Source: Nitrososphaerota archaeon
GTDB taxonomy: Archaea > Thermoproteota > Nitrososphaeria > Nitrososphaerales > Nitrosopumilaceae
Assembly (NCBI GenBank): GCA_028867755.1
Contig: JAGWFT010000001.1
Span: 226,727 to 290,726 of the forward strand
Direction of reading: 5' to 3'
DNA length: 64,000 nt
Made by a program: the position numbers and the translations under genes. Numbering within the stretch: the stretch's first letter is position 1; every line of letters begins with the position of its first letter. A model generated the notes under the pieces. The model ran no database searches. It saw only the letters and a program-made list of their open reading frames with translations, and was not told the origin of the DNA. Of the stretch, positions 23,665 through 57,173 are shown piece after piece.

Positions 23665-24363
23665 TTAGAAATTTATGTATGATTCTAGTCTTGTTTGATC
23701 AAATACCATTACGGAAAGATCAGAAAATTGTTTTCCTTCCAGATCTTTTACTGTTCCAACAAAACAAGTCTCCTTCTCCGTTGTAAGAAACTCAAAGACA
23801 TGCACTTTTATTTTTGAAGTGTCAAACCCATGATTTTTCAAATAGATTGCAATCTCAGACTGCATAAAGTGCTTTGAGGGCTCTTTTGGCCAGGGGCGTG
23901 GCACCAGCACTACACTTAATCCATCTGCCAGTGCTTTTTGGAGCTCAAGCTTCTTTTCTTCTATGCTAGTTGACACATGCATAGTTATCACCCTGCTTTT
24001 GTCAAGTGGTACCCTTGCTTTTGATGCAGCAACTTGCACTGAGCTTATACCTGGAACTACCTGCACATCTCCGAAAATTTCAATTAACCTATCAACAACC
24101 TCTGATTCAGAAAAGTTTACGTCCCCCGTGAATGGTACAACACAAGTCTTGCTCCCAAGAACCTTGGAGACTTTTTGGTATGCTTCTTCCTGATCTTGCA
24201 TCGTTATCTCATAAACCTCTTTATTTTTGATGAGCTCCTCAATAGTTTTGAGAGTATACTTGTAACCTATTACAATGTCAGAATTTGTCACAATTTCCTT
24301 TACTATATCTGTGACATATTCTGGTGAGCCAGGTCCTACTCCCACTGCAAAAACTTTTCCCAT
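23665..24363 (-). CDS. cbiE: cobalt-precorrin-7 (C5)-methyltransferase, CbiE-like
   Basis: SAM-dependent tetrapyrrole methylase of cobalamin synthesis. The start MGKVFAVGVGPGSPEYVT is the standard methylase N-terminus. VVPFTGDVNFSESEVVDRL replaces the usual SGDPG loop, as in CbiE. VVPGISSVQVAASKARVPL is the third motif. A TTG eight codons upstream (24387) gives a longer frame, but ATG at 24363 places the first beta-strand correctly. CbiE rather than another Cbi methylase is judged from the GDVNFSES motif. CbiH and BluB occur elsewhere in the window. Confidence 0.8.
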   Translation of the reverse strand: MGKVFAVGVGPGSPEYVTDIVKEIVTNSDIVIGYKYTLKTIEELIKNKEVYEITMQDQEEAYQKVSKVLGSKTCVVPFTGDVNFSESEVVDRLIEIFGDVQVVPGISSVQVAASKARVPLDKSRVITMHVSTSIEEKKLELQKALADGLSVVLVPRPWPKEPSKHFMQSEIAIYLKNHGFDTSKIKVHVFEFLTTEKETCFVGTVKDLEGKQFSDLSVMVFDQTRLESYINF

Positions 24364-24446
24364 AAAGACATCTTTTGTAATGTTCAATATAATTCACAAT
24401 TTGGAAACACAATTAGCTTTTATTTGCGAGCTCAAAGTCTTTATCA

Positions 24447-37946: not shown

Positions 37947-38036
37947 ATGAAGACAATGATAGGTGCATTTGTTATAACAATTTTTCCGAGAGAAACATGT
38001 TCTTATTCTGGTTTCACCGATCTCGAATCTGAATGA
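37947..38036 (+). CDS. possible 29-codon micro-ORF overlapping the cas6 start
   Basis: ATG at 37947, immediately after an in-frame TGA, opens 29 codons: MKTMIGAFVITIFPRE..., ending SGFTDLESE with a TGA that overlaps the cas6 ATG as ATGA. Such overlap is typical of translational coupling. The first half is hydrophobic. A TATA-like TTATAACA lies inside the frame (about 37970), which argues against full transcription from that promoter; another, TTCTTAAAAT, lies at about 37897. So expression is uncertain. Confidence 0.35.
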   Translation: MKTMIGAFVITIFPRETCSYSGFTDLESE

Positions 38037-38779
38037 GAATTTTATTAAAACTCCGTTCATTGGAAACACAAAAATACGATATGGGCTATCATCATAAATT
38101 ACAAAGCTTTATCTATAAAATGCTAATGACCCAAGGCTTAACTCAAATCCATGACAAAAAAGGTTACAAGTTTTTTTGTTTTTCAAATATTTTTCCCTCA
38201 AATAACATGCATAGGGGTGATCTAAAAAGTCTAATTATTTCATCGCCTAATGAAAAAATAATTCGTGCGTTTGAGAGGCAGGCACAACAGATAAGATCCG
38301 ATCAATCTTCTATTATGATAGGAAATATGACATTTATTCTTGATAGATTTGAAGTTTTCTCATTAAATTTACCTGACGATAATGTAAGAATGATAACAGG
38401 AACCCCAATTATTATCAGGATTCCAAGGGAACGATATTTGAAATATGGGATTAATCCTGAAATTCCATATAATTATATCTTCTGGCGTAAGGAACATCCG
38501 ATTGAAATGTTTATTGAACAGATTGAGGAAAACCTAAAGAAAAAATATGAAGAGTTCACAACAAAACCTGTTGTAGAAGAAACAATACTTAGTAAAATAA
38601 AATTTCGAAAGCAGATATCAAATAAGATTCCACTCAAAGGAGATATTCAGACAATAATAGGCACTCTGTGGGAATTCGATTTTCATAAAAAAGAGAACAT
38701 GGATCTATTACAGTTTAGTTTAGATGCAGGATTTGGAGAGAGAAACTCTCTTGGTTTTGGATTTATGAATTTACAATAG
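38033..38779 (+). CDS. cas6: CRISPR RNA endoribonuclease Cas6
   Basis: 248 aa. Processes pre-crRNA at repeats, producing the 8-nt 5' handle. Two ferredoxin-like folds are indicated, with an early His-containing helix (MGYHHKLQSFIYKMLM), a typical mid region (IMIGNMTFILDRFEVF) and the C-terminal Gly-rich loop DAGFGERNSLGFGFMNL that marks Cas6. ATG at 38033. First gene of the plus-strand effector operon cas6-cas8b-cas7-cas5-cas3. Confidence 0.95.
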   Translation: MRILLKLRSLETQKYDMGYHHKLQSFIYKMLMTQGLTQIHDKKGYKFFCFSNIFPSNNMHRGDLKSLIISSPNEKIIRAFERQAQQIRSDQSSIMIGNMTFILDRFEVFSLNLPDDNVRMITGTPIIIRIPRERYLKYGINPEIPYNYIFWRKEHPIEMFIEQIEENLKKKYEEFTTKPVVEETILSKIKFRKQISNKIPLKGDIQTIIGTLWEFDFHKKENMDLLQFSLDAGFGERNSLGFGFMNLQ

Positions 38780-38813
38780 ATATTCTTAAAAATTACAATA
38801 GGATGCTGTCTTT

Positions 38814-40304
38814 GTGGAAATAATTTTCAAAAGAACTGGAGATTTTTGGATTGATTTGGGCATCATCTCTCTTTGGACTAGATTGGCCTCACAGGCCTCT
38901 AAACGAGGATCATCATATGTTACTCAGGTGAAGAGACATGGGAGATATGGTAAAGACATTCCAGTATTGAAGGTCATACTTTCTCCCGACCAATTATCTT
39001 TGATAGCCGAAAAAGAAAATGCCATTGTGGAGGAGTTAGATAAGACTTGCGTGAAGCTTTGCAATGATTATATAAGAAAAGCAAGTACTGGCAGAAACTG
39101 GTGGTGGGGAATTTCTAATTTTTTCTTCAAAAATACAAAACCGGAATCATTTTTTAAAAATCCTGAAGATATGGTTAAAGAACAGAAAGGTAAATGGAGT
39201 AAAGAAACATGCAATTTTTGTGGCCTTGAAAGAATGGTAAAAGATCTGGGAACTACTGAACACCCATTAGTTGTAACAAGTAAAAAATTCCAAAGTTTTT
39301 ACTCTGAGTTATCTACTAGTGTAAAGATATGTAATTATTGTACATTTGTAACAAAATTTGTTCCAACAAAGTTATTCTTCAATACTGGCAGAAATGCTAT
39401 TCTTGCAATGATGTTTGAAAGCTCGGATCTAATTACTTTAAATAATTTATATATTGAATTATCACGACTTTTCGCAGAGGCAAACGAATATGGAAACTTC
39501 CCAAACGTCCTTTCTTGGACTCAATATCCTGCAGAAACTTTCATGAATTTTCTATGTGCAATAAAAATAGAAACGACTAATTCAAATATTTTAAAAAATA
39601 CTCTTGAAAAGTTAGAGAATAGTAAAGCACATGTAATAAAAGGAACACTCGGACAAGGTCTTATAATTGCTAATTATATAATTATTCCAAATCTTTTCAA
39701 GACCTATAATTTTATTGAGCATTGTGACTGGAAATCTAAATCTGGTAAAAAGTATAATGCACTGATTAATACTTTGAAATTTCTAATGGTTAAAACATCA
39801 ACAGGAATGGATACTATTAAAAGAGAGGAATTCTGTCACCGCATATTCTATAGTTATGATGTGACAAATCTCTTATTTGAATTTCTCATTGATAATAGCT
39901 TAGGGAAAAGTCAGACAGGCAATTTACCATCTGCAGGCTTTTCAGGATTTAATATAGAAGTATTTATCACTAAGTATGAAAAAATACTCGCGTACATGAA
40001 CCAGTATCAGATTGACATCTCAAAAGAAATTGGGGCTATGATTGGTGATCTAGCAAAGAAGACTGGGAAGAAATCATTATTGTATTCTCTTCGTAGTGCA
40101 AGAAACTTGAATGACCTCTTAGCGTTCATCAATGAGATTCTGAACAGCTATCTGGACATGATAATATTAGATCGAAATCACATAGATGGCCTTCTTAAGG
40201 CAATAGATAACTCCAATTGGTCCACATACAAGTCTCTCATAGGAATTCATGCAGTCTTGTCTTTCCTAGAAAATAATGAATTAGTAGAGGTAAAAAGCAG
40301 ATGA
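38814..40304 (+). CDS. cas8b: type I-B Cascade large subunit Cas8b
   Basis: 496 aa, position and size fit Cas8b (Cst1/Csh1-like). Two CxxC pairs, CNFC at about 136 and CNYC at about 176, can form a zinc finger. The C-terminal region is helical with little other motif conservation, as usual for this fast-evolving family that recognises PAMs. GTG start at 38814, 34 bases after cas6; its stop overlaps cas7 by 4 bases. The family is inferred mainly from context and the zinc finger. Confidence 0.88.
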   Translation: MEIIFKRTGDFWIDLGIISLWTRLASQASKRGSSYVTQVKRHGRYGKDIPVLKVILSPDQLSLIAEKENAIVEELDKTCVKLCNDYIRKASTGRNWWWGISNFFFKNTKPESFFKNPEDMVKEQKGKWSKETCNFCGLERMVKDLGTTEHPLVVTSKKFQSFYSELSTSVKICNYCTFVTKFVPTKLFFNTGRNAILAMMFESSDLITLNNLYIELSRLFAEANEYGNFPNVLSWTQYPAETFMNFLCAIKIETTNSNILKNTLEKLENSKAHVIKGTLGQGLIIANYIIIPNLFKTYNFIEHCDWKSKSGKKYNALINTLKFLMVKTSTGMDTIKREEFCHRIFYSYDVTNLLFEFLIDNSLGKSQTGNLPSAGFSGFNIEVFITKYEKILAYMNQYQIDISKEIGAMIGDLAKKTGKKSLLYSLRSARNLNDLLAFINEILNSYLDMIILDRNHIDGLLKAIDNSNWSTYKSLIGIHAVLSFLENNELVEVKSR

Positions 40305-41287
40305 CAAGTAAAGCAATAACAATAGGAATACTATTCAAGGTCGAGGTAGGCAATGTTAATGCCGGGTGGACGGAAGGTGTAGTAACCATAATGAAAAAAG
40401 TTGAGCTTCCTGATGGTAATTCTCATCCATATATTTCCGGCCAAGCCATGCGAAGATATATGCGAGATACTATGCAGGATATAATAACTGGAACATCAGA
40501 ACAAATGTCTCCATCAGATCAGGCTAAAGACAAACGAGGAAAATCGCCAATCACTACCCTTGGTGATCCTAGGAAATATATCGATGATGATCTTTTCGGA
40601 TTTATGAGGGCAGTAAAAAAAGATCGGAAAGAAAAGGGTAAGGAAAAAGATGAAGAGTCTGAAATCGGTTCTACTCGAAAACGAACATCTCCATTAAGAG
40701 TATCTGCTGCATTTGGTTTTTTCAAATTTACTGGAAACAGAGATTTGGGAACAAAAAGTTCCATAGAGCATTCAGGTTCGGCTGAATCTGGCGGATCAAT
40801 TTTTGAAACTGAGATCACTAACAACATTTTCAAAAATAATCTCATGCTTGAATTAGATCGAGTTGGTGTATGGAAAGATTATGAAACAACAGATGAAGAG
40901 GGAGAGGGAAGTCTTTCGGAAATTCAAAGAAAAGAGAGAATAAAGATTATGATTAAATCGCTCAAATATCTATGGGGAGGCGGAAGACAAAGTAGATTCC
41001 TTGTTGATTTGACCCCACAATTTATCATTTATGCGAGAATGTCTAAGAAGGTTCCAATTTTTCTAAATTCTCTAAATATTACATATGAAAATTCCCAATA
41101 TTATCTAGGCTCTGCGATACAAGAGGCCCTCAAAGACTATGAACAAGACATTGAGAATGTAATTATCGGGTCCAGAGATGGATTTTTAAAAAATGTTAAT
41201 AATTTAGAAAACAATGGAAGAGCAGTACAAACCATAGGGAATGCAATAGATATGATGATAAAAGACATTGACACAGCAAAAATCTGA
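40301..41287 (+). CDS. cas7: Cascade backbone subunit Cas7 (DevR/Cst2-like)
   Basis: 328 aa, RAMP fold that multimerises along crRNA. Features: ITIGILFKVEVGNVNAG at the start, PYISGQAMRRYMRDTMQD (the typical SG-x-x-[FM]RR helix), SPLRVSAAFGFFKF, and RQSRFLVDLTPQFIIYARM. A long Lys/Glu-rich insertion at about 105-125 is unusual. Overlaps cas8b by 4 bases and cas5 by 20 bases, consistent with tight translational coupling. Confidence 0.93.
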   Translation: MTSKAITIGILFKVEVGNVNAGWTEGVVTIMKKVELPDGNSHPYISGQAMRRYMRDTMQDIITGTSEQMSPSDQAKDKRGKSPITTLGDPRKYIDDDLFGFMRAVKKDRKEKGKEKDEESEIGSTRKRTSPLRVSAAFGFFKFTGNRDLGTKSSIEHSGSAESGGSIFETEITNNIFKNNLMLELDRVGVWKDYETTDEEGEGSLSEIQRKERIKIMIKSLKYLWGGGRQSRFLVDLTPQFIIYARMSKKVPIFLNSLNITYENSQYYLGSAIQEALKDYEQDIENVIIGSRDGFLKNVNNLENNGRAVQTIGNAIDMMIKDIDTAKI

Positions 41288-42011
41288 AACTAATCAGAAA
41301 AATATACAAGCAGTTTGTCTTACTGTGAGAGGAGATTTTAATTCATATAGAATTTCTACAAATATAAAATATCAACGGAGTTATATTATTCCTACAAAAA
41401 CAACTCTAATTGGTATGCTTGGTGCTGCGCTTGGGATACAAAATAAAGAACTCGAAATTCTTTTTAAAACAGTCAAGACTAACGCTGTTTTAATTTCACT
41501 TATGGGCCGTGCAAAAGATCTATGGCTTGTAAGTAAACTAAAAGTAGATGGTAATCATGAAAAATCTCCAATAATGAGAGAAGTTCTGGTCAATCCAGTA
41601 TACATGATCTACTATCAGGCAGATAACGACATGATTTTAAAAATTATTGATGCGTTAAAAGATCCAAAATTTGTACTTAGTCTTGGTAGGTCTGATGAAA
41701 TGATAGAAATAAAAGAAATCCAAACACTAAAACTGACCGAAACAAAAGGTATAGCCAGTTTTAAAAATACAATTATTCCATTCAATTATAGAAGTCTCTT
41801 TCTTGCCTATGAAACTATGCCTGTACAAAGAGGAACAACCATGGAATTGCCAGAAGTGATTAACATACCTGTTTCTTTTGAATACGATTCAGCTGGCAGA
41901 AGAAAAGTAAGTGAGTCAAAAGATGTTACTATTATTTATGAACTTGGTATAAAATTAAAAGATTCGTCTGGAGCGTGGAGTGATGGAAAACGAAATCTAT
42001 TCCTTTACTAA
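41268..42011 (+). CDS. cas5: Cascade subunit Cas5
   Basis: 247 aa RAMP protein that caps the 5' handle of crRNA. N-terminal AVCLTVRGDFNSYRI, then SYIIPTKTTLIGMLGAALG, the conserved P-x-x-T-x-x-G-x-L-GAA pattern of Cas5. The rest is weakly conserved. It overlaps cas7 at its start and cas3 at its end (cas3 begins 31 bases before the cas5 stop), so the effector genes form one operon. Confidence 0.94.
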   Translation: MTQQKSETNQKNIQAVCLTVRGDFNSYRISTNIKYQRSYIIPTKTTLIGMLGAALGIQNKELEILFKTVKTNAVLISLMGRAKDLWLVSKLKVDGNHEKSPIMREVLVNPVYMIYYQADNDMILKIIDALKDPKFVLSLGRSDEMIEIKEIQTLKLTETKGIASFKNTIIPFNYRSLFLAYETMPVQRGTTMELPEVINIPVSFEYDSAGRRKVSESKDVTIIYELGIKLKDSSGAWSDGKRNLFLY

Positions 42012-44199
42012 AATTCTTGCAAAATCTGAACCAGAAGAGACTCTTGAGGAACACATAGAAAATGTACTCAAATTTCTCATCAAATTCATAAAATGGAAGA
42101 AAAAAGAAATAAAAAAAATATCTGAAATTACCGGCTTGCACAGAACTGAAATTCAAGGAAGATTATTTGCAACAGCATATTTACATGATATTGGAAAATG
42201 TAGCAATTCATTTCAGAGATTTATAAGAAAGGAACAATCTAACCGCTTTCCTCACGCTCTTTTAGGACTTCCCTTTATCATATCTGCAGTAGATCCGTTG
42301 TCAGTAGAAGATACAACAATTTATCCTGAAGCAATTTCAGTAATGTCCCATCATACTCCGTTTTATGATGGTCTTTACGCGTATGAAAAAGATAACCCAC
42401 CTAATAAATTTTTAATTATAAATAAAGCACTTGAATTTTATAATAAAATCGAACAATCATATTCCAATATATTCAAAGAAAAATATCCATTTCAATTAGG
42501 TAACCCAGATCTAGACTCATCGTTGTCTACCCTCTTGGAAAAAATCAAAAACCCTCTAAAATTTAATCGGCCCACACATCTTAGGGAAATTCATTCTTTT
42601 TTCGTGAATTTTTTGCATACTGTAGATTGGCTTGGTAGTGGAAAAACGTTTGATTATCAGTATTCGGTAAAAAGCATTTCCGAGAAGATTGCAAATGAAT
42701 TGAAACAAAAAAAAAGTTTGACTTCTTGGAATGAAATTCAAATTAAAGCATCACATACGTATGGCAATTTGCTTCTTTGTGCCCCCACTGGTCAGGGGAA
42801 AACAGAAGCTGCACTATTATGGGCTGATAGAAATATGTATCATGATAAGATAATTTATCTATTACCTACGCGGGTTACAACGAATGCACTCTATAAGAGA
42901 TTAAAATTCCTTGGAGATTCTGTTGGTGTATCACATGGAACTTCAGCTTTAATTATTGCAGAGGAAGAACAATGGAATAACAAAAGAATTATGGCAAGAA
43001 GATTACGTTCTGGTTCTTTTATGGAACCAATTACTGTTGCAACGGTTGACCAGTTATTATTACCACATTTTAATTGGAAGTATTGGGAAATGATTGAACA
43101 AAATGCATCTAACGCTGCAATCGTCTTAGATGAAATTCATGCATATGATTACTACACTCTAGCTTTGATCACTGAGATGATCAAAAAATTTCCACGGAGT
43201 CGTTTTGCTTATCTCTCAGCCACTTTACCAAAGTATATTCAAAATCATCTTACTAACTTGCATGAAGAAAAAATTACCACTATTGTGGACTATGAACATC
43301 TTGATTTATCAAGACATAACATACAATTTATCGAGACTACTATTGATAATTCAGTTGACGAAGTAAAACAATATTACAAAGAAGGTAAGAAGGTGTTGAT
43401 CATATTAAACACTGTCAAAGAAGCAACTCGATTTTACAAGAATTTTTTAGATCTTAATTCCATACTTTATCATTCTAGATTCATAGAGAAAGACAGACGC
43501 AAGAAAGAAGAATTAATTGAAGAAGCAAATGACAAAAACAAAGGTTGTATCGTTGTTGCTACACAGGTAGTAGAGGTCAGTCTTGATATCGATTTTGATA
43601 TTCTTTTCACTCAGATTGCACCACTGGACGCTCTGATTCAACGTTTAGGGAGAGTGAATAGAAAAGGTAAAAAATCCACAGATATTACTAACGTGAAAAT
43701 ATATGATTTTGGTGAATTTGATTATATGGTATATGGACTAGATAATCTACAAAATGCAAGAGAAATTGCGTCTACATGGTTTTCTGTTAAACATAGATTG
43801 AAAGAAAATGAAATTCAGGATTTAATAGAATGGCAATATCCACAAGAAAAAACCTCTGCTAGTTTTCTAGAAGAATGGGATAGAGTTCACGAGGATCTAG
43901 AATGGTTTAGAAATCAATTATGGGATATTCAAACTCTTCGAATGAAAGATGATATGAAGGTACTTATGAAGTTAGCAAAAACCAGACAAGATAAATTTCC
44001 TGAAATTGCTGTAATTCCTGAAATGTTCAAAGATGAAGTTAATCTCTTGCAGCCGAGTAGAAAACTTCAAGTTATTGAATATCTAGTCAAGGTACCATTT
44101 TCTCAGTTCAAGAACGGTATTAGGCCTGCAAAAGATGATTCTGATCTAGTCTTTTGTAAAATGGATTATAGCTTTGAATATGGTGCTGACGCGCTTTGA
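41980..44199 (+). CDS. cas3: Cas3 nuclease-helicase (HD + SF2 helicase)
   Basis: 739 aa. N-terminal HD nuclease: His69-Asp70 in ATAYLHDIGKC and HH at 124-125 in MSHHTPFYD. Helicase: Walker A APTGQGKT at 268-275, DEIH at 384-387, SAT at 413-415, late motif QRLGRVNRKG at about 570. It degrades DNA recruited by Cascade. Single-chain HD-helicase, as usual for I-B. GTG (41980) or ATG (41983) start; the stop is about 65 bases before the first array repeat, inside a stretch resembling a repeat. Confidence 0.97.
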   Translation: MMENEIYSFTKILAKSEPEETLEEHIENVLKFLIKFIKWKKKEIKKISEITGLHRTEIQGRLFATAYLHDIGKCSNSFQRFIRKEQSNRFPHALLGLPFIISAVDPLSVEDTTIYPEAISVMSHHTPFYDGLYAYEKDNPPNKFLIINKALEFYNKIEQSYSNIFKEKYPFQLGNPDLDSSLSTLLEKIKNPLKFNRPTHLREIHSFFVNFLHTVDWLGSGKTFDYQYSVKSISEKIANELKQKKSLTSWNEIQIKASHTYGNLLLCAPTGQGKTEAALLWADRNMYHDKIIYLLPTRVTTNALYKRLKFLGDSVGVSHGTSALIIAEEEQWNNKRIMARRLRSGSFMEPITVATVDQLLLPHFNWKYWEMIEQNASNAAIVLDEIHAYDYYTLALITEMIKKFPRSRFAYLSATLPKYIQNHLTNLHEEKITTIVDYEHLDLSRHNIQFIETTIDNSVDEVKQYYKEGKKVLIILNTVKEATRFYKNFLDLNSILYHSRFIEKDRRKKEELIEEANDKNKGCIVVATQVVEVSLDIDFDILFTQIAPLDALIQRLGRVNRKGKKSTDITNVKIYDFGEFDYMVYGLDNLQNAREIASTWFSVKHRLKENEIQDLIEWQYPQEKTSASFLEEWDRVHEDLEWFRNQLWDIQTLRMKDDMKVLMKLAKTRQDKFPEIAVIPEMFKDEVNLLQPSRKLQVIEYLVKVPFSQFKNGIRPAKDDSDLVFCKMDYSFEYGADAL

Positions 44200-44236
44200 A
44201 TCACCATATTGTTCAGTTTGAATCGAACTATTGTAG
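44195..44236 (-). repeat. inverted partial CRISPR repeat and degenerate copy at the array trailer
   Basis: From 44216 to 44236 the plus strand has 21 bases identical to the first 21 of the crRNA-strand repeat (begins GTTTGAATCGAACTA), so it is inverted relative to the array repeats as read on the plus strand. Just before it, overlapping the cas3 stop, 44195-44212 has TTTGAATC and TATTGT at repeat-like spacing. The first repeat starts 27 bases later, so a minus-strand transcript could fold 21 bp between the last repeat and this element. Confidence 0.75.
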
Positions 44237-44263
44237 CCTCATTCACTAATTTTTCAATTATAT

Positions 44264-46675
44264 CTTTCAATCCTACAATAGTTCGATTCAAACATGTTTG
44301 ACCCAACTGTTTTAATCGTTTGTGTAGCAGTCTTTCAATCCTACAATAGTTCGATTCAAACAGGTTTTGTTAGATCATGTGTAGTTTTTGGTATTGTCTT
44401 TCAATCCTACAATAGTTCGATTCAAACCAGAGTAAACGTATATCTGTGTTCTTGTTTCTGCATCCTTTCAATCCTACAATAGTTCGATTCAAACTGCATC
44501 CTGGAACTGGAACAAGTTTGGCTATGACAGACTTTCAATCCTACAATAGTTCGATTCAAACTTTGCAGATGACACCAACGAATCAGCACTCTTGATCCTT
44601 TCAATCCTACAATAGTTCGATTCAAACATTGAGAAAATTCGTATGGAGCTAGAATCATCTATCCTTTCAATCCTACAATAGTTCGATTCAAACCGTTGAC
44701 ACAACTTTTTGCAACAGATGTTTTGAGCACTTTCAATCCTACAATAGTTCGATTCAAACCTCGGAGATGCCTTCGTAGGCATTGGTATGCTAATCTTTCA
44801 ATCCTACAATAGTTCGATTCAAACATGGTAGATTATTTCTGGCCGTTGCAATTGTAATCGCCTTTCAATCCTACAATAGTTCGATTCAAACCCATATCCA
44901 GTTAATCTAACCATTAATGACAATCTACTTTCAATCCTACAATAGTTCGATTCAAACACATATTCAAAAGGCCAACTGAGACAGTCATAAAGACTTTCAA
45001 TCCTACAATAGTTCGATTCAAACTCAATATACGCATATCACCACGAATTAAAGAAGATACTTTCAATCCTACAATAGTTCGATTCAAACGTGTCACCAAA
45101 ATCTCCTGGTGCATTAATGCAAGAGACTTTCAATCCTACAATAGTTCGATTCAAACTGGTGAAAAATTCACAAACACAATGACAGAAAGATACTTTCAAT
45201 CCTACAATAGTTCGATTCAAACTGGCTCGTTTGCTCCAGGAAGAGAATTGGTATGTAGCTTTCAATCCTACAATAGTTCGATTCAAACACATCTTGACAT
45301 TAACAGAACTAAACTCAAGATCAACTTTCAATCCTACAATAGTTCGATTCAAACATTTACATTCCAGCAAAACTAGAAAAGAAAGTTGTCCTTTCAATCC
45401 TACAATAGTTCGATTCAAACAATTATTGTAATGTTCTTTCTGTATGGATTAGTAACCTTTCAATCCTACAATAGTTCGATTCAAACAACTCCAGCTGGCT
45501 GGCGTCCCACAAGATGGAGCCACTTTCAATCCTACAATAGTTCGATTCAAACATGATTGTCTTATTTGTCGGCCTGCAACTACCACTTTCAATCCTACAA
45601 TAGTTCGATTCAAACTGCCTTTTGGAGAAATGAAAGATTTGACATAGTTAACTTTCAATCCTACAATAGTTCGATTCAAACTTTGACAAGAACCCTCCAG
45701 TCTCCATCCTTGGGATACTTTCAATCCTACAATAGTTCGATTCAAACGGCAATATATGTAAGCATTGTATTGCCTTTATCACTCTTTCAATCCTACAATA
45801 GTTCGATTCAAACTCTAATCATTGGCTCTTTTTTCCATTTTATGACTAGCTTTCAATCCTACAATAGTTCGATTCAAACTACTGTGATGTCCGAGAATCT
45901 TCCAAGTCTGACCTGTCTTTCAATCCTACAATAGTTCGATTCAAACCTGTGTTGTTACAGATCCAACAAACGGTCTCTGCTACTTTCAATCCTACAATAG
46001 TTCGATTCAAACGAGATTGTACTTCATTTTTACACTTGTCTCGATATACTTTCAATCCTACAATAGTTCGATTCAAACCTAGTGCAGGCTTTGTTTTCCA
46101 TCCCTTGTTACCATCTTTCAATCCTACAATAGTTCGATTCAAACCAGCTACTGCATTTACTGTACCCTCGTTTGGTGTTATCTTTCAATCCTACAATAGT
46201 TCGATTCAAACTCTATTCTCCCTAGCTCTTTTAGCAACCTTATCTTTCTTTCAATCCTACAATAGTTCGATTCAAACTGGAGTAGGGGCTGGAGTAGGTG
46301 ATGGTGATGGTATCTTTCAATCCTACAATAGTTCGATTCAAACAGGATTACCAGCAGTCAGAAAGATTTGCCATGTACACTTTCAATCCTACAATAGTTC
46401 GATTCAAACGTCTTTACTACATAATAGAAGACAGTTTCCGATGAATCTTTCAATCCTACAATAGTTCGATTCAAACTATCGAATTTCTTCGAATCCTTGT
46501 TGTATTTGAACCACTTTCAATCCTACAATAGTTCGATTCAAACAATATATTGTGTCATATTTTTATTATTTTTACTGATCTTTCAATCCTACAATAGTTC
46601 GATTCAAACTTATTCTAATATGATGTTGTCGAGGTGTTCGAATCCCTTTCAATCCTACAATAGTTCGATTCAAAC
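44264..46675 (-). CRISPR. CRISPR array, 37 repeats and 36 spacers
   Basis: 37 copies of a 30-bp repeat, apparently identical, with spacers of 33 to 38 bp, mostly 36. On the crRNA (minus) strand the repeat begins GTTTGAATCGAACTA and ends GGATTGAAAG, giving the ATTGAAAG handle typical of archaeal type I systems. Transcription therefore runs from 46675 down to 44264, and the newest spacers are at the right, next to cas4-cas1-cas2. The uniform repeats and length suggest an active array. Spacer 46278-46313 is of G-rich low complexity. Confidence 0.99.
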
Positions 46676-46860
46676 CGCCAGTTTTTTCAACGGATTTATG
46701 CATACTTTAATCGATAAGCCCTTTTAGTTTTTCGGCAACCTCCAATAGTGCAGTCTACTTATAAAAGCAACTTTTCAAGCGCGTAATGCATCACAGTTAA
46801 TAATCTAGTCAGCAATTTGTCACCCATCATTCTATAGTTTTTTTATAACATATTGAATAA
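46676..46860 (-). promoter_or_regulatory. CRISPR leader with probable minus-strand promoter
   Basis: Non-coding 185 bases between the array and cas4. On the minus strand a TATA-like CTTTTATAAG (46758-46767) would start transcription near 46736, about 60 bases before the first repeat. The same near-palindrome reads CTTATAAAAG on the plus strand, so it might serve cas4 too. TTTTATAA at 46841-46848 is a second plus-strand candidate just before cas4. Confidence 0.7.
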
Positions 46861-47370
46861 TTGGAGGCGTTCACAGATGCAGGCCTGACCCATACTGGCT
46901 CTGAGATTAACTATTATTTTGTATGCAAAAGAAAACTCTGGCTTTTTTCTCATAACATAGAATTAGAGTCTGATTCTGATCTTGTGCTGCAAGGTAAACT
47001 TTTGCATGAACACAGCTACAAAAGGAAATTAAAAGAGATTGCAATTGACAAGATAAAGATCGATTTCATAGAGAAAACAAATGAAGTGCATGAAATAAAA
47101 CGTTCAAGAAAAATAGAGGATGCTCATGTGTATCAGCTGCTATACTATCTGTACTATCTCAAAAAATATGCCGGACTTGACACAAAGGGAGTCCTTAACT
47201 ATCCGTTGCTTAAAAAAACTGTAAAGGTAGAGCTAACTCCACAAAAAGAAAGAGAGCTGCAAAAGATAATTCAGAAAATAGATCAGATAACAGAACTTGT
47301 AAAACCTCCAGAGGCAAAATGGATATCATACTGCAAGAGTTGTGCATATAGTGAGATGTGCTGGGGATGA
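46861..47370 (+). CDS. cas4: Cas4 RecB-like nuclease
   Basis: 169 aa adaptation nuclease that trims prespacers and selects PAM. Cys22 (FVCKRKLWLF) and C-terminal cysteines (WISYCKSCAYSEMCWG) bind a 4Fe-4S cluster. The RecB core shows EIK at 78-80 (HEIKRSRK) and Gln92 (YQLLYYLYYL). Start codon is doubtful: TTG at 46861 gives the longest frame but overlaps GGAGG, and the only nearby ATG is out of frame. Stop overlaps cas1 as ATGA. Confidence 0.93.
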   Translation: MEAFTDAGLTHTGSEINYYFVCKRKLWLFSHNIELESDSDLVLQGKLLHEHSYKRKLKEIAIDKIKIDFIEKTNEVHEIKRSRKIEDAHVYQLLYYLYYLKKYAGLDTKGVLNYPLLKKTVKVELTPQKERELQKIIQKIDQITELVKPPEAKWISYCKSCAYSEMCWG

Positions 47371-48353
47371 AAGATTACTATGTATTTAAAAATGGAAGAT
47401 TGCGCAGAAGCGAAAACACCATAAAATTAGAATCATCAACAGGAGAGAAAAAATCTCTTCCCATACATGATATCTATTCCATACATCTGTTTGGCGAGAC
47501 TGATCTTAACACAAAACTGATTGTATTTCTAAACCAGCACGGAATCCCGCTACACTTTTACAATTATTATGGATATTATTCAGGAAGTTTTTATCCGCGA
47601 GAAAAACTACTCTCCGGATTTCTTATCGTAAAGCAAGTACAGCATTATCTTGATTCTCACAAGAGGCTGGAAATTGCAAAAGAATTTGTCAGAACATCTA
47701 TACATAACATTCTCTCGAATTTACAACAATACAGCAAGAGAGGCAAAGACATGGGCGAATTCATCTCAAGAATTAAAGGTGAATCTGAGGCCATTGAGGG
47801 AGTAACCAATATTCCAGAACTTATGGGAGTAGAAGGCAGATCAAGGCAGGCATACTTCTCCTCCTTTGATTCATTTTTAAGAAAGGGATTCGAGTTTGAA
47901 AAAAGAACCAAGCTTCCTCCCCAGAACATGCTTAATAGCCTGATATCATTTGGAAATTCTTTGCTTTATGCTACAATACTTACAGAAATCTACCATACGC
48001 AGCTCACGCCAACTATAAGTTATCTTCACGAACCAGGCGAGAGGAGATACTCTCTTTCTCTTGATATAAGTGAGATATTCAAACCTATCATAGTAGACAG
48101 GGTCATCTTTAATCTTATCAATAACAGAATCATAAAACCAGAACACTTTGACAACAAGCTAAAAGCCAGTTTTCTAAACGAACAAGGAAGAAAGATCTTT
48201 GTATCTGAATACAAGAAGAAGCTTGAAACTACAGTTCACAATACCACCTTAAAGAGAAATATCAGCTATCAGCGCCTGATAAGAATAGAATGCTTCAAGC
48301 TAATCAAACACATACTTGATGAACGAGCCTACAAAGGCCTTAGGAGCAAATGA
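47367..48353 (+). CDS. cas1: Cas1 integrase
   Basis: 328 aa spacer integrase. Metal ligands: Glu156 in MGVEGRSRQAYF, His221 in YLHEPGERRYSL and Asp233 in LSLDISEIFKP. ATG at 47367 overlaps the cas4 TGA by ATGA; the frame also has a GTG 9 bases upstream, which I reject. The downstream cas2 starts directly after its stop. Belongs to the plus-strand adaptation operon cas4-cas1-cas2. Confidence 0.98.
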   Translation: MKDYYVFKNGRLRRSENTIKLESSTGEKKSLPIHDIYSIHLFGETDLNTKLIVFLNQHGIPLHFYNYYGYYSGSFYPREKLLSGFLIVKQVQHYLDSHKRLEIAKEFVRTSIHNILSNLQQYSKRGKDMGEFISRIKGESEAIEGVTNIPELMGVEGRSRQAYFSSFDSFLRKGFEFEKRTKLPPQNMLNSLISFGNSLLYATILTEIYHTQLTPTISYLHEPGERRYSLSLDISEIFKPIIVDRVIFNLINNRIIKPEHFDNKLKASFLNEQGRKIFVSEYKKKLETTVHNTTLKRNISYQRLIRIECFKLIKHILDERAYKGLRSK

Positions 48354-52689: not shown

Positions 52690-52721
52690 ATTTACTCTAA
52701 AAATTTCTTAATGTGATAATG

Positions 52722-53510
52722 ATGCTTGGTAAGTTATACATTGTAGGAGTTGGACCGGGTCATCACGATCACATGACTTTTAGAGCTAAACAAGTAATTG
52801 AGGAAAGCAATACAATTGTAGGATATGAAACATACGTAAATCTGGTTGAAGATCTAATTGAAGGAAAAGAAGTTCACAGATATGCCATGACACAGGAAGT
52901 TGAACGTGCTCATCAATGTATAGATCTTGCAAAATCTGGTAAGATAGTTTCTCTGGTCTCAAGTGGGGATCCAGGAATCTATGGCATGGCTGGTTTGATT
53001 TATGAAATTCTTGCTGAAGAGAACTGGGACAGAAAAACTGGTCTGTATGTTGAGATAGTTCCAGGAGTCTCTTCTCTTAACTCATGTGCTGCACTGGTTG
53101 GCTCTCCATTGATGACTGATTTTGCAGTAGTTAGCATGAGCGATTTGCTTGTACCGTGGGAAATAATAATAAAAAGAGTTGAAGCTGCAGCGCAAGGGGA
53201 TTTTGTAATTGTGATATACAATCCTGCAAGCAAGAAAAGGATTCACCAGTTACAAGACACAAGAAAAATTTTGCTAAAATATAGAATACCAAATACTCCT
53301 GTAGCAATAGTCAAGGGGGCATACAGAGAATCGCAGGAGGTTGTTCTAACTGATCTGGAAAATATGGAAAGCCATCAGGATAAGCTAGGAATGATAACTA
53401 CTGTGATAATAGGCAATTCTTCTACATTTAGATACAAGGACATGATGGTTAATCCTCGTGGATATACATCAAAATACAATATAGTAGAGCCACAGAAAAG
53501 CCGAAGCTAA
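52722..53510 (+). CDS. cbiH: precorrin-3B / cobalt-factor III C17-methyltransferase, CbiH-like
   Basis: About 262 aa SAM-dependent methylase of ring contraction. KLYIVGVGPGHHDHMTFRA, SSGDPGIYGMAGLIYEIL, EIVPGVSSLNSCAALVGSPLMTDF and FVIVIYNPASKKRIHQL are CbiH/CobJ hallmarks. The end GNSSTFRYKDMMVNPRGY is typical. ATG 52722 fits the start of the first strand; earlier in-frame starts exist to 52713. Together with CbiE and BluB it supports de novo B12 synthesis. Confidence 0.92.
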   Translation: MLGKLYIVGVGPGHHDHMTFRAKQVIEESNTIVGYETYVNLVEDLIEGKEVHRYAMTQEVERAHQCIDLAKSGKIVSLVSSGDPGIYGMAGLIYEILAEENWDRKTGLYVEIVPGVSSLNSCAALVGSPLMTDFAVVSMSDLLVPWEIIIKRVEAAAQGDFVIVIYNPASKKRIHQLQDTRKILLKYRIPNTPVAIVKGAYRESQEVVLTDLENMESHQDKLGMITTVIIGNSSTFRYKDMMVNPRGYTSKYNIVEPQKSRS

Positions 53511-55273: not shown

Positions 55274-56362
55274 TTGAAAATTCCTATAAATTCCCCAGTA
55301 ATTGGAAAGGAGGAAATCAATGAAGTACGATCTGTTTTACTGGAAAAATCATTAACCACTGCTGCAAATTCTGGAGGCAAAAGAACCCAAGAGTTTGAAA
55401 GACTTTTGTCATCGTATACCAAATCAAGATACGCAATAGCAGTAAATTCAGGTACTGCAGCACTGCAGGCTGCGCTTTACACTCTTGACATAAAAAGTGG
55501 CGATGAAGTCCTGCTCCCATCATTTACTTTTGTAGCCACTGCAAATTCTGTTGTATCAGTTGGTGCAAAGCCAGTGTTTGTGGATGTGACTCCAGATAAT
55601 TATACGATGGATCCTGACGACCTGGAGAGAAAAATCACAAAAAAATCAAAGGCAATAATGCCTGTCCATCTGTACGGAAATTTTTCATACATGAGTGAAA
55701 TTTCTGAGATAGCAGACAAGCATAATATCGATGTAATTGAGGATGCTGCGCAGTCACTGGGAACTACATATAAAAATAAACAATCAGGAACATTTTCACG
55801 ATTAGGTTGCTTTAGCATGTATGCTGCAAAGGTAGTGACATCAGGAGAGGGTGGGGCAATTGTCACAAACGACAGAGATCTATTTGAAAAACTTCGTAAA
55901 ATAAGAAACCATGGAATGCTTCATGGGTACGACACCAGAATTTTAGGATTAAATCTTAGGCTTCCAGAAATATCTGCTGCCATAGCCAAGGTTCAAATGA
56001 AAAAACTTCCAAAGTTTCTCAAAAAAAGAGAGAAAAATGCCAAAACTTTAACAGACCTCTTATGCGACCTGAATTTCATTCTACCAAAAGAAAGAGCTGG
56101 TGTCAAGGTAAACTGGTATCTTTATACAATTTCCACAAAGAATCGAGATAGATTATCAAAGCAATTAAATGAAAAAGGAATTGGTGCAACAGCATATTAT
56201 TCCATCCCAGTACACAAAACTCCATTTTACAAAAACAATACAAAATTACCGATGACTGATTGGGCTGCTTCTGCAGTACTGAGCTTGCCTGTACATCCTC
56301 TTGTAACGGAAAATGATCTTCATTACATCTCAAAAACCATTCACCAATTGATCAAAAAATGA
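55274..56362 (+). CDS. DegT/DnrJ/EryC1/StrS-family aminotransferase
   Basis: 362-aa PLP enzyme normally making amino sugars for surface glycans. SVLLEKSLTTAANSGGKRTQEFE, GTAALQAALYTLDI, EVLLPSFTFVATANSVV, VIEDAAQSLGT and FSMYAAKVVTSGEGG (PLP Lys in AAK) are clear. HPLVTENDLHYISKTIHQL closes it. The stop overlaps the MtrA-like gene by 4 bases. TTG start at 55274. An actual sugar substrate is not evident from neighbours. Confidence 0.92.
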   Translation: MKIPINSPVIGKEEINEVRSVLLEKSLTTAANSGGKRTQEFERLLSSYTKSRYAIAVNSGTAALQAALYTLDIKSGDEVLLPSFTFVATANSVVSVGAKPVFVDVTPDNYTMDPDDLERKITKKSKAIMPVHLYGNFSYMSEISEIADKHNIDVIEDAAQSLGTTYKNKQSGTFSRLGCFSMYAAKVVTSGEGGAIVTNDRDLFEKLRKIRNHGMLHGYDTRILGLNLRLPEISAAIAKVQMKKLPKFLKKREKNAKTLTDLLCDLNFILPKERAGVKVNWYLYTISTKNRDRLSKQLNEKGIGATAYYSIPVHKTPFYKNNTKLPMTDWAASAVLSLPVHPLVTENDLHYISKTIHQLIKK

Positions 56363-56838
56363 ATCTTATAGGAGAGTTTGCAGGTGAATTGTGCAAAATA
56401 CTGCTTCCAATTGAGGACAGGGTTTACCTTGGGAATTCCGAATCTGGTATAGCCATATGCACTCTGTCTAGCATGAAACTGCTCACTGAAATTGTAAATT
56501 CTTCATTTATGGTCAAAATCAATATAGCTGGGAGACTGCTTTCAGAAAATAAAGGAATTGATTTACTTGTTAGATATGTTATATCCAATAGAAAAATTCA
56601 CACTATCATACTATGTGGTAACGATGCAGTAGGACACAAGCCTGGACACTCGTTATTTTGTTTATACAAAAATGGAATAAACCAAGACAGAAGAATAATT
56701 GGTTCTCAAAGTCCAGATCCATTTTTGTCATTGACAAGTGAAGAGGTGTTAGAGTTTCAAAATCAAGTAAGAATTATTGATAAGATAGGGCAAACCAATA
56801 TTTCAAATCTCAGTATGGAAATCAACAACAAAAGCTAA
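56359..56838 (+). CDS. MtrA-like corrinoid protein
   Basis: 159 aa. Resembles the cytoplasmic domain of tetrahydromethanopterin S-methyltransferase subunit A: GIAICTLSSMKLLTEI, INIAGRLLSENKGIDLLVR, ILCGNDAVGHKPGHSLFCLY with the likely cobalt-binding His, and NGINQDRRIIGSQSPDPFL. The final segment QNQVRIIDKIGQ is also MtrA-like. It lacks the C-terminal membrane helix. ATG overlaps the DegT stop as ATGA. In a non-methanogen its role is open. Confidence 0.85.
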   Translation: MNLIGEFAGELCKILLPIEDRVYLGNSESGIAICTLSSMKLLTEIVNSSFMVKINIAGRLLSENKGIDLLVRYVISNRKIHTIILCGNDAVGHKPGHSLFCLYKNGINQDRRIIGSQSPDPFLSLTSEEVLEFQNQVRIIDKIGQTNISNLSMEINNKS

Positions 56839-56840
56839 GC

Positions 56841-57173
56841 TCAATAACCGTCAAGCTGTCTTTGTTTGTTGACTTGGTGTTTCTTTTGATATTCTTTTAG
56901 TATGTCCTCGGGGGTCATGTTCAGTTCCAGTGAAGCTTGTACCACAAAGTGCCATATATCGATAAGCTCCTCCCTGGCAGCTGCCTCGTCAAACTCTGTC
57001 GGTTTTTTCCACCACTTCCAATTCGTTGTTCGCTGCAGCTCTACTGCCTCGTGAATTATGGCAGTACACAATGAAGAAATTTTCCCTTGTGTATCTTTTG
57101 GATAACGCTCTAGGTTCATCATTTTCTCCAAATTCTTTTGAAGCCTGAAAATTGTATCCAGCCTGTCTTCCAT
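56841..57173 (-). CDS. all-alpha NTP pyrophosphohydrolase (dUTPase-2 / MazG-like)
   Basis: 110 aa. The metal-binding helix patterns are HEAVELQRTTNWKWWKKP and AAREELIDIWHFVVQASLEL, where E-x-x-E and E-x-x-D ligate Mg. The WKWWKK-EELIDIWHF arrangement resembles dimeric dUTPases more than canonical MazG. Cleans dUTP or damaged dNTPs from the pool. Convergent with the MtrA-like gene, 2 bases between stops. Confidence 0.85.
   Translation of the reverse strand: MEDRLDTIFRLQKNLEKMMNLERYPKDTQGKISSLCTAIIHEAVELQRTTNWKWWKKPTEFDEAAAREELIDIWHFVVQASLELNMTPEDILKEYQKKHQVNKQRQLDGY

Follow-up and report, generated by a model that had tools for sequence, protein, structure and literature searches.

The window, that is, the whole stretch of 64,000 nucleotides that was analysed, contains a gene for a soluble protein of the MtrA family which, as judged from its sequence, its predicted fold and an unrooted tree, belongs to one clade common to ammonia-oxidiser-type archaea. 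This protein does not belong to an Mtr pump: its reading frame is too short to include a membrane anchor, and MtrH is missing from the genome. We read it, with moderate confidence, as a free-standing accessory carrier of corrinoid rather than as an Mtr subunit, which would work either with a PPOX-family oxidoreductase and a BtuR/CobO-like protein or with a pair of methyl-transfer partners. Its host is a Nitrosotalea-lineage archaeon (assembly of 1.64 Mb, 99.95% complete). Ammonia-oxidising archaea are said to be implicated in global cobalamin production. In these organisms, which are abundant (PMC10833072), a conserved, single-copy and dispensable MtrA-type protein points to an unmapped B12 or one-carbon step.

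Identity and distribution of the MtrA-type protein

The open reading frame (56359..56838, forward strand; 159 aa) scored 82.5 bits against PF04208 (MtrA; cut-off 25) in a Pfam search. It stops at residue 159, just past the MtrA domain, and consists of the soluble core only, the C-terminal membrane helix of Mtr subunit A being absent. Its sequence matches in the PDB are the MtrA chains 5laa, 5l8x, 8q3v and 9qtq, one further row being at chance level (E 0.43). An AlphaFold2 model built with 55 homologues reached a pLDDT of 86.5, residues 1-19 falling under 50, and at E<=0.001 the predicted fold matched MtrA chains only (TM 0.74-0.79 by query length), the best being 5l8x (TM 0.79). The preliminary description of the protein as the soluble core of MtrA, in an organism that is not a methanogen, is supported. 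From its profile scores, the protein is best classified as a member of the family and not as a true MtrA, because it stays well under both the NCBIfam equivalog cut-off (TIGR01111, mtrA; 74.5 bits against 249.15) and that of the top-scoring NCBIfam model, NF002126 (121.6 against 161).

With MtrA as the corrinoid-bearing subunit of Mtr (M. jannaschii 5l8x, M. marburgensis and M. mazei), the window protein shares the Rossmann-like fold, the His ligand, its Glu partner, Asn55 and Gly57. It differs in stopping short of a juxtamembrane segment and a membrane helix, in an identity of 23-33% (structural alignments), in the replacement of Asn64 and Lys52, and in a genome devoid of MtrH. The cytoplasmic MtrA homologue of methanogens (M. 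fervidus 5laa) is likewise soluble and made of a single domain. However, such homologues are described, in the part of the structural report at hand, as 60-97% identical to true MtrA (PMC4915002), whereas the window clade is far more distant and the window's genome lacks MtrH. When a gene of an archaeon of this kind is annotated as mtrA, this should not on its own be taken as a trace of methanogenesis. Within the accessible portions of the literature on MtrA and corrinoid proteins in ammonia-oxidising archaea, no treatment of this clade was found; mtrAH is mentioned there for hot-spring Nitrososphaeria (PMC6783470, PMC8407382), and the "MtrA" of N. evergladensis is a two-component regulator (PMC4084955).

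A search of the window's own genome returned one MtrA copy. Among 300 sampled Nitrososphaeria genomes, 188 gave a match to the family, always as a single copy, and the proportion was 154/213 in the high-quality subset; a phylum-wide set, which overlaps the former, gave 96 matches in 398 genomes. The MtrA-positive Nitrososphaeria belong for the most part (179/188) to four families, denoted f1, f2, f3 and f5, and the other 9 genomes to further families. Family f1 is read as the Nitrosopumilaceae, and we take f3 to be the Nitrososphaeraceae and f2 the Nitrosocaldaceae, in part from their pattern of MetE and MetH. The pattern used in labelling f2 and f3 is the one reported for Nitrosocaldus in the available text of PMC5817080. 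The label "ammonia-oxidiser-type" for the four families is our own reading and is weakest for f5, which comprises one genome.

The gene is not a chance reading frame, because it is matched in 188 of the 300 class genomes and because dN/dS ranges from 0.07 to 0.27 across 13 pairs, a sign of purifying selection. Phylogeny, which had been proposed as a check, separates the ammonia-oxidiser-type copies from the others: in an unrooted tree of 70 rows, obtained by a quick search without bootstrap and showing some long end branches, a single branch (SH-aLRT 99) divides the 41 rows from f1, f2, f3 and f5 from the rest, and f1, f2 and f3 each form a single branch (SH-aLRT 99, 95 and 90, respectively). 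This topology fits vertical inheritance, of which it is no proof.

The corrinoid site

In M. fervidus MtrA, cobalamin is held base-off with His84 on the cobalt and Glu54 bound to His84, and Thr53 and Asn64 are among the residues whose side chains touch the cobalamin tail, according to the part of the report at hand (PMC4915002). Mapping onto this structure places the equivalents of His84 and Glu54 at H93 (56635-56637) and E63 (56545-56547) of the window protein. The residue alignment has 65 rows besides the canonical ones, in which the window gene appears twice (once as L001) and L042 is not a member of the clade, so that 63 different genes of the clade remain. Every one of them keeps the equivalents of Glu54, Asn55, Gly57 and His84, which are also invariant in an alignment of 56 rows. 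Loss of the His in relatives, one half of the outcome that had been named as speaking against a corrinoid protein, is thus not what the clade displays. Position 53 is Ser or Thr in every aligned clade gene. The Asn64 equivalent, which is Tyr in the window protein, is replaced in 59 of the 63 genes, mostly by Tyr, His or Phe, and kept as Asn in 4, against 27/27 of the other homologues, some of which are close relatives of each other; this tail contact comes from the M. fervidus structure and is not among the stated requirements of the MtrA family. Lys52 is also replaced in the window protein. The site is therefore conserved where it grips the cobalt and has changed where it meets the nucleotide tail.

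We infer from these residues that the window protein binds corrinoid. Most likely, a cobamide would be held base-off as in M. fervidus, with the cobalt coordinated from below by H93, and H93 in turn hydrogen-bonded to E63. Since Asn64 is so widely replaced, the affinity or the specificity for corrinoids may differ in the clade.

It is very unlikely, in our estimation, that the clade represents a repurposed MtrA fold which no longer binds corrinoid. The loss of Asn64 in 59 of the 63 genes would fit such a change, and loss of the ligand is evidently possible, since at the His position the long homologues L178, L185, L186, L188 and L042 have Phe (three), Tyr (one) or Pro (one). In L178, L185 and L186, where Phe stands for the cobalt-ligand His and Ala for the Glu, the MtrA fold is possibly used in a corrinoid-free manner. 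Against this reading, the His, the Glu, Asn55 and Gly57 are invariant in the clade even though overall identity to the window protein drops as low as 39%.

Elsewhere in the phylum, the MtrA domain also occurs in other protein contexts, with and without the cobalt ligand. It is fused to PterinBD-DUF4346 in f17, f19 and another family (L006, L042 and L178), and to a methanogen-type ThyA in other Thermoproteota (L175:1378-2694, L181:1432-2709 and L188:230-1597); a literature search on both kinds of fusion returned nothing relevant. These proteins contain the same MtrA domain within a longer, different protein, whereas the window protein is unfused. The Glu is lost in L042, L178 and the three ThyA fusions, and the His in L042, L178 and L188, whereas the window clade keeps both.

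Gene neighbourhood and losses

Upstream of the MtrA-like gene lies a gene for a DegT/DnrJ/EryC1 PLP-dependent aminotransferase (55274..56362, forward strand; PF01041, DegT_DnrJ_EryC1, 379.9 bits), whose stop codon shares the ATGA at 56359-56362 with the MtrA start. Downstream, on the reverse strand, is a gene for a dUTPase_2-like NTP pyrophosphatase (56841..57173; PF08761, 65.9 bits, cut-off 22.9; the NCBIfam dUTPase model was not passed, with 33.5 bits against 300), and the convergent stops of the two genes are 2 nt apart. Coordinates and gene calls thus agree with the arrangement first described, an ATGA overlap with DegT and convergence on a dUTPase-like gene. DegT is directly upstream of MtrA in 45 of 46 f1 loci, the window's own included; L013 keeps MtrA with no DegT alongside. 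Start and stop overlap by 4 or 8 nt in 42 f1 loci (17 with ATGA, 11 with TTGA or GTGA, and 14 of 8 nt), a count obtained with a script that takes the start codon nearest to the DegT stop and is thereby biased toward overlaps; L063 has ATGA by eye, and in L040 and L041 the two genes do not overlap. No DegT homologue was present in the fetched loci of f2, f3 and f5. The dUTPase-like gene converges with MtrA in all the listed f1 loci and in 8 of 12 f3 genomes, an orientation which means that the two have no shared transcript.

The loss survey drew on 12 of the tested f1 genomes, which lack an MtrA match and have a DegT homologue at E<=1e-60; of these, eight were inspected, leaving out G037, G046, G141 and G144, whose DegT matches are 51% or less. 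In five of them (G063, G234, G159, G212 and G102), tblastn matches place the DegT and dUTPase-like genes 0-108 nt apart, or nearly so, and MtrA has therefore been deleted. In G086, a broken MtrA copy lies between the DegT and dUTPase-like genes (G086:C68, L203), and a second broken copy, likewise flanked by both genes, occurs in G097 (G097:C7, L211), a genome counted as MtrA-positive among the 300 Nitrososphaeria; both are apparently recent losses. The absence is not real in G214, where a contig end cuts the MtrA locus, and G177 has only a 52% DegT match and none of the other neighbours. MtrA has thus been lost more than once, which means that it is dispensable and that B12 metabolism can do without it.

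DegT and MtrA do not form an obligate pair, MtrA being deleted with DegT staying in five genomes, broken in two, and present without an adjacent DegT in L013. The DegT and dUTPase-like genes are positional neighbours and not obligate partners of MtrA, DegT and MtrA each being found without the other, and the overlap with DegT is not supported as a hint to function.

Another neighbour is a PPOX-family gene, which is directly upstream of MtrA in 12 of the 17 fetched genomes outside f1 (f2 4/4, f5 1/1, f3 7/12). It matches PF01243 above the cut-off; since its nearest NCBIfam models, F420-dependent PPOX enzymes, all score below their cut-offs, F420 as its cofactor is a guess. PPOX is not adjacent to MtrA in the other 5 of 12 f3 genomes nor in f1, where it lies 7-8 kb downstream in four loci (L035, L059, L060 and L062) and 19 kb downstream in the window's genome. 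Across f1, 104 genomes have both genes, 34 MtrA only, 10 PPOX only (one of them the contig-cut G214) and at least 14 neither, a co-occurrence above expectation (Fisher p = 0.0015, uncorrected for relatedness). PPOX without MtrA is also found in other families of the order and of the class.

Corrin genes are seen nearby in fewer genomes. A BtuR/CobO-like gene, so labelled from its P-loop sequence by eye, is the divergent neighbour of MtrA in L052 and is separated from it by one gene in L050 (2 of 12 f3 genomes), and a CbiD-like gene, also recognised by eye, starts within 7 kb of MtrA in 5 of 12 f3 genomes; because the genomes covered are few and corrin genes many, the proximity of both could be due to chance. 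Within the window, a CobJ/CbiH precorrin-3B C17-methyltransferase gene (52713..53510, forward strand; TIGR01466, 314.9 bits, cut-off 246.35) ends 2.8 kb upstream of MtrA, and in those f1 loci that extend far enough, CobJ is found at 2-5 kb on the upstream side. A CbiE-like cobalt-precorrin methyltransferase gene (23665..24387, reverse strand; TIGR02467, 96.9 bits, cut-off 92.9) is far from MtrA. Both genes score above their cut-offs and belong to corrin biosynthesis. An apparent CRISPR array beside probable cas genes was also recognised by eye in the window, at 38033-48353 (repeats in the ORFs at 45038-46464).

Cobalt reduction and adenosylation in B12 synthesis are carried out by CobR and CobO. 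A link of the window protein to this pathway is suggested by the PPOX-family gene and, in two genomes, by the BtuR/CobO-like gene near MtrA, and we know of no MtrA-type carrier in it. The free-standing carrier would present its base-off cobamide to the reduction and adenosylation step, for which the PPOX-family oxidoreductase and the BtuR/CobO-like adenosyltransferase are candidate partners; alternatively, the cobamide might be presented to an unrecognised methyl donor/acceptor pair. A more specific version, which we regard as unlikely, is that of an MtrA-derived corrinoid chaperone whose changed tail pocket would accept incomplete or different corrinoids and pass these on to BtuR/CobO and to a reductase of the PPOX family that may depend on F420. 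If true, it would describe an aerobic relay for cobalt reduction and adenosylation unlike the known B12 trafficking proteins. The mutable residues, PPOX as a candidate partner and the natural deletion lineages offer handles by which the carrier function could be probed.

Candidate partner pathways

A methyl carrier is the main alternative to corrinoid handling and, in our view, somewhat on the unlikely side: MtrA would receive a methyl group from methyl-tetrahydropterin through an unrecognised methyltransferase and donate it to an acceptor, the role that MtrA has between MtrH and coenzyme M. The clade keeps the His-Glu pair that tunes the cobalt in a methyl-transferring protein, and both fusion partners of the MtrA domain elsewhere in Thermoproteota, ThyA and PterinBD-DUF4346, are pterin-linked. 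In addition, the available text of Price et al. predicts that the methanogen MesA takes methyl groups from MtrA, in which case MtrA could serve biosynthesis (PMC7857596), and the mtrAH of hot-spring Nitrososphaeria and Bathyarchaeia has been proposed, in the passages at hand, to assimilate unknown methylated compounds (PMC6783470, PMC8407382).

Candidate pathway genes, profiled in 67 genomes, speak against such a carrier. The preliminary description had noted no other Mtr subunit in the window, and the absence of MtrH (PF02007) extends to the whole genome; MtrH was detected in 4 of the 67 genomes but not in a single one of the 59 that represent f1-f5 and f7, which rules out its working with MtrA there. 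DUF4346, found in 7/67, is likewise missing from the f1-f5 and f7 genomes that were tested and can be set aside as a detached partner; across the 55 tested genomes of f1, f2, f3 and f5, neither MtrH nor DUF4346 occurs. The MetE catalytic domain (16/67 genomes) is present in 5/5 f2 genomes, the one f5 genome, three f1 genomes without MtrA and others, but in none of the 14 MtrA-positive f1 and 7 MtrA-positive f3 genomes tested, which have a MetH-type homocysteine domain instead; therefore no core MetE is there for MtrA to feed, and a role as its donor is rejected. MtrA and MetE do occur together in f2 and f5. Further, MtrA is lost without change in the tested methyl genes, except in three MetE-bearing genomes.

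These three f1 genomes (G124, G159 and G212) are the ground for another reading, highly improbable to us, in which MtrA would assist methionine synthase, either by keeping cobalamin in store for a split MetH or by helping to reactivate it, and would become dispensable once MetE replaces MetH. The MetH homocysteine domain (46/67 genomes) is the complement of MetE within f1, f2, f3 and f5, and in all three tested MetE-bearing f1 genomes a MetE-type catalytic domain replaces it and MtrA is absent; PF02607 has no match in two of them and one below the cut-off in the third. However, the distribution of MetE within f1 (0/14 MtrA-positive against 3/24 MtrA-negative genomes) is not significant (about 0.24, hand calculation), and a tie between MtrA and MetH meets counter-examples both ways: 21 of the 24 f1 genomes counted as MtrA-negative, one of the 24 being the contig-end artefact G214, still have the MetH homocysteine domain, and f2 and f5 carry MtrA without it.

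As to the co-occurrence with methyltransferases that had been proposed as a check, none of MtrH, MetE, MetH, ThyX, ThyA and DUF4346 tracks MtrA across the 67 genomes. Corrinoid handling is modestly favoured over a methyl shuttle, both being possible, because the search for known methyl-donor partners gave none, because the tail pocket differs and the gene can be lost, and because its recurrent neighbours are PPOX and, in fewer genomes, corrin genes.

Finally, a link to thymidylate synthesis, an idea that came from the proteins in which MtrA is fused to ThyA and from the adjacent dUTPase-like gene, is discarded: ThyX is present in 65/67 genomes regardless of MtrA, and ThyA in 2/67, with none in the tested f2, f3 and f5 genomes and one among 38 of f1 (G063, which lacks MtrA). 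In G000:C24:804678-806018 and in most tested f1-f5 genomes, ThyX is a single open reading frame (about 545 aa) that Thy1 matches twice, as would be expected if a tandem duplicate had fused.
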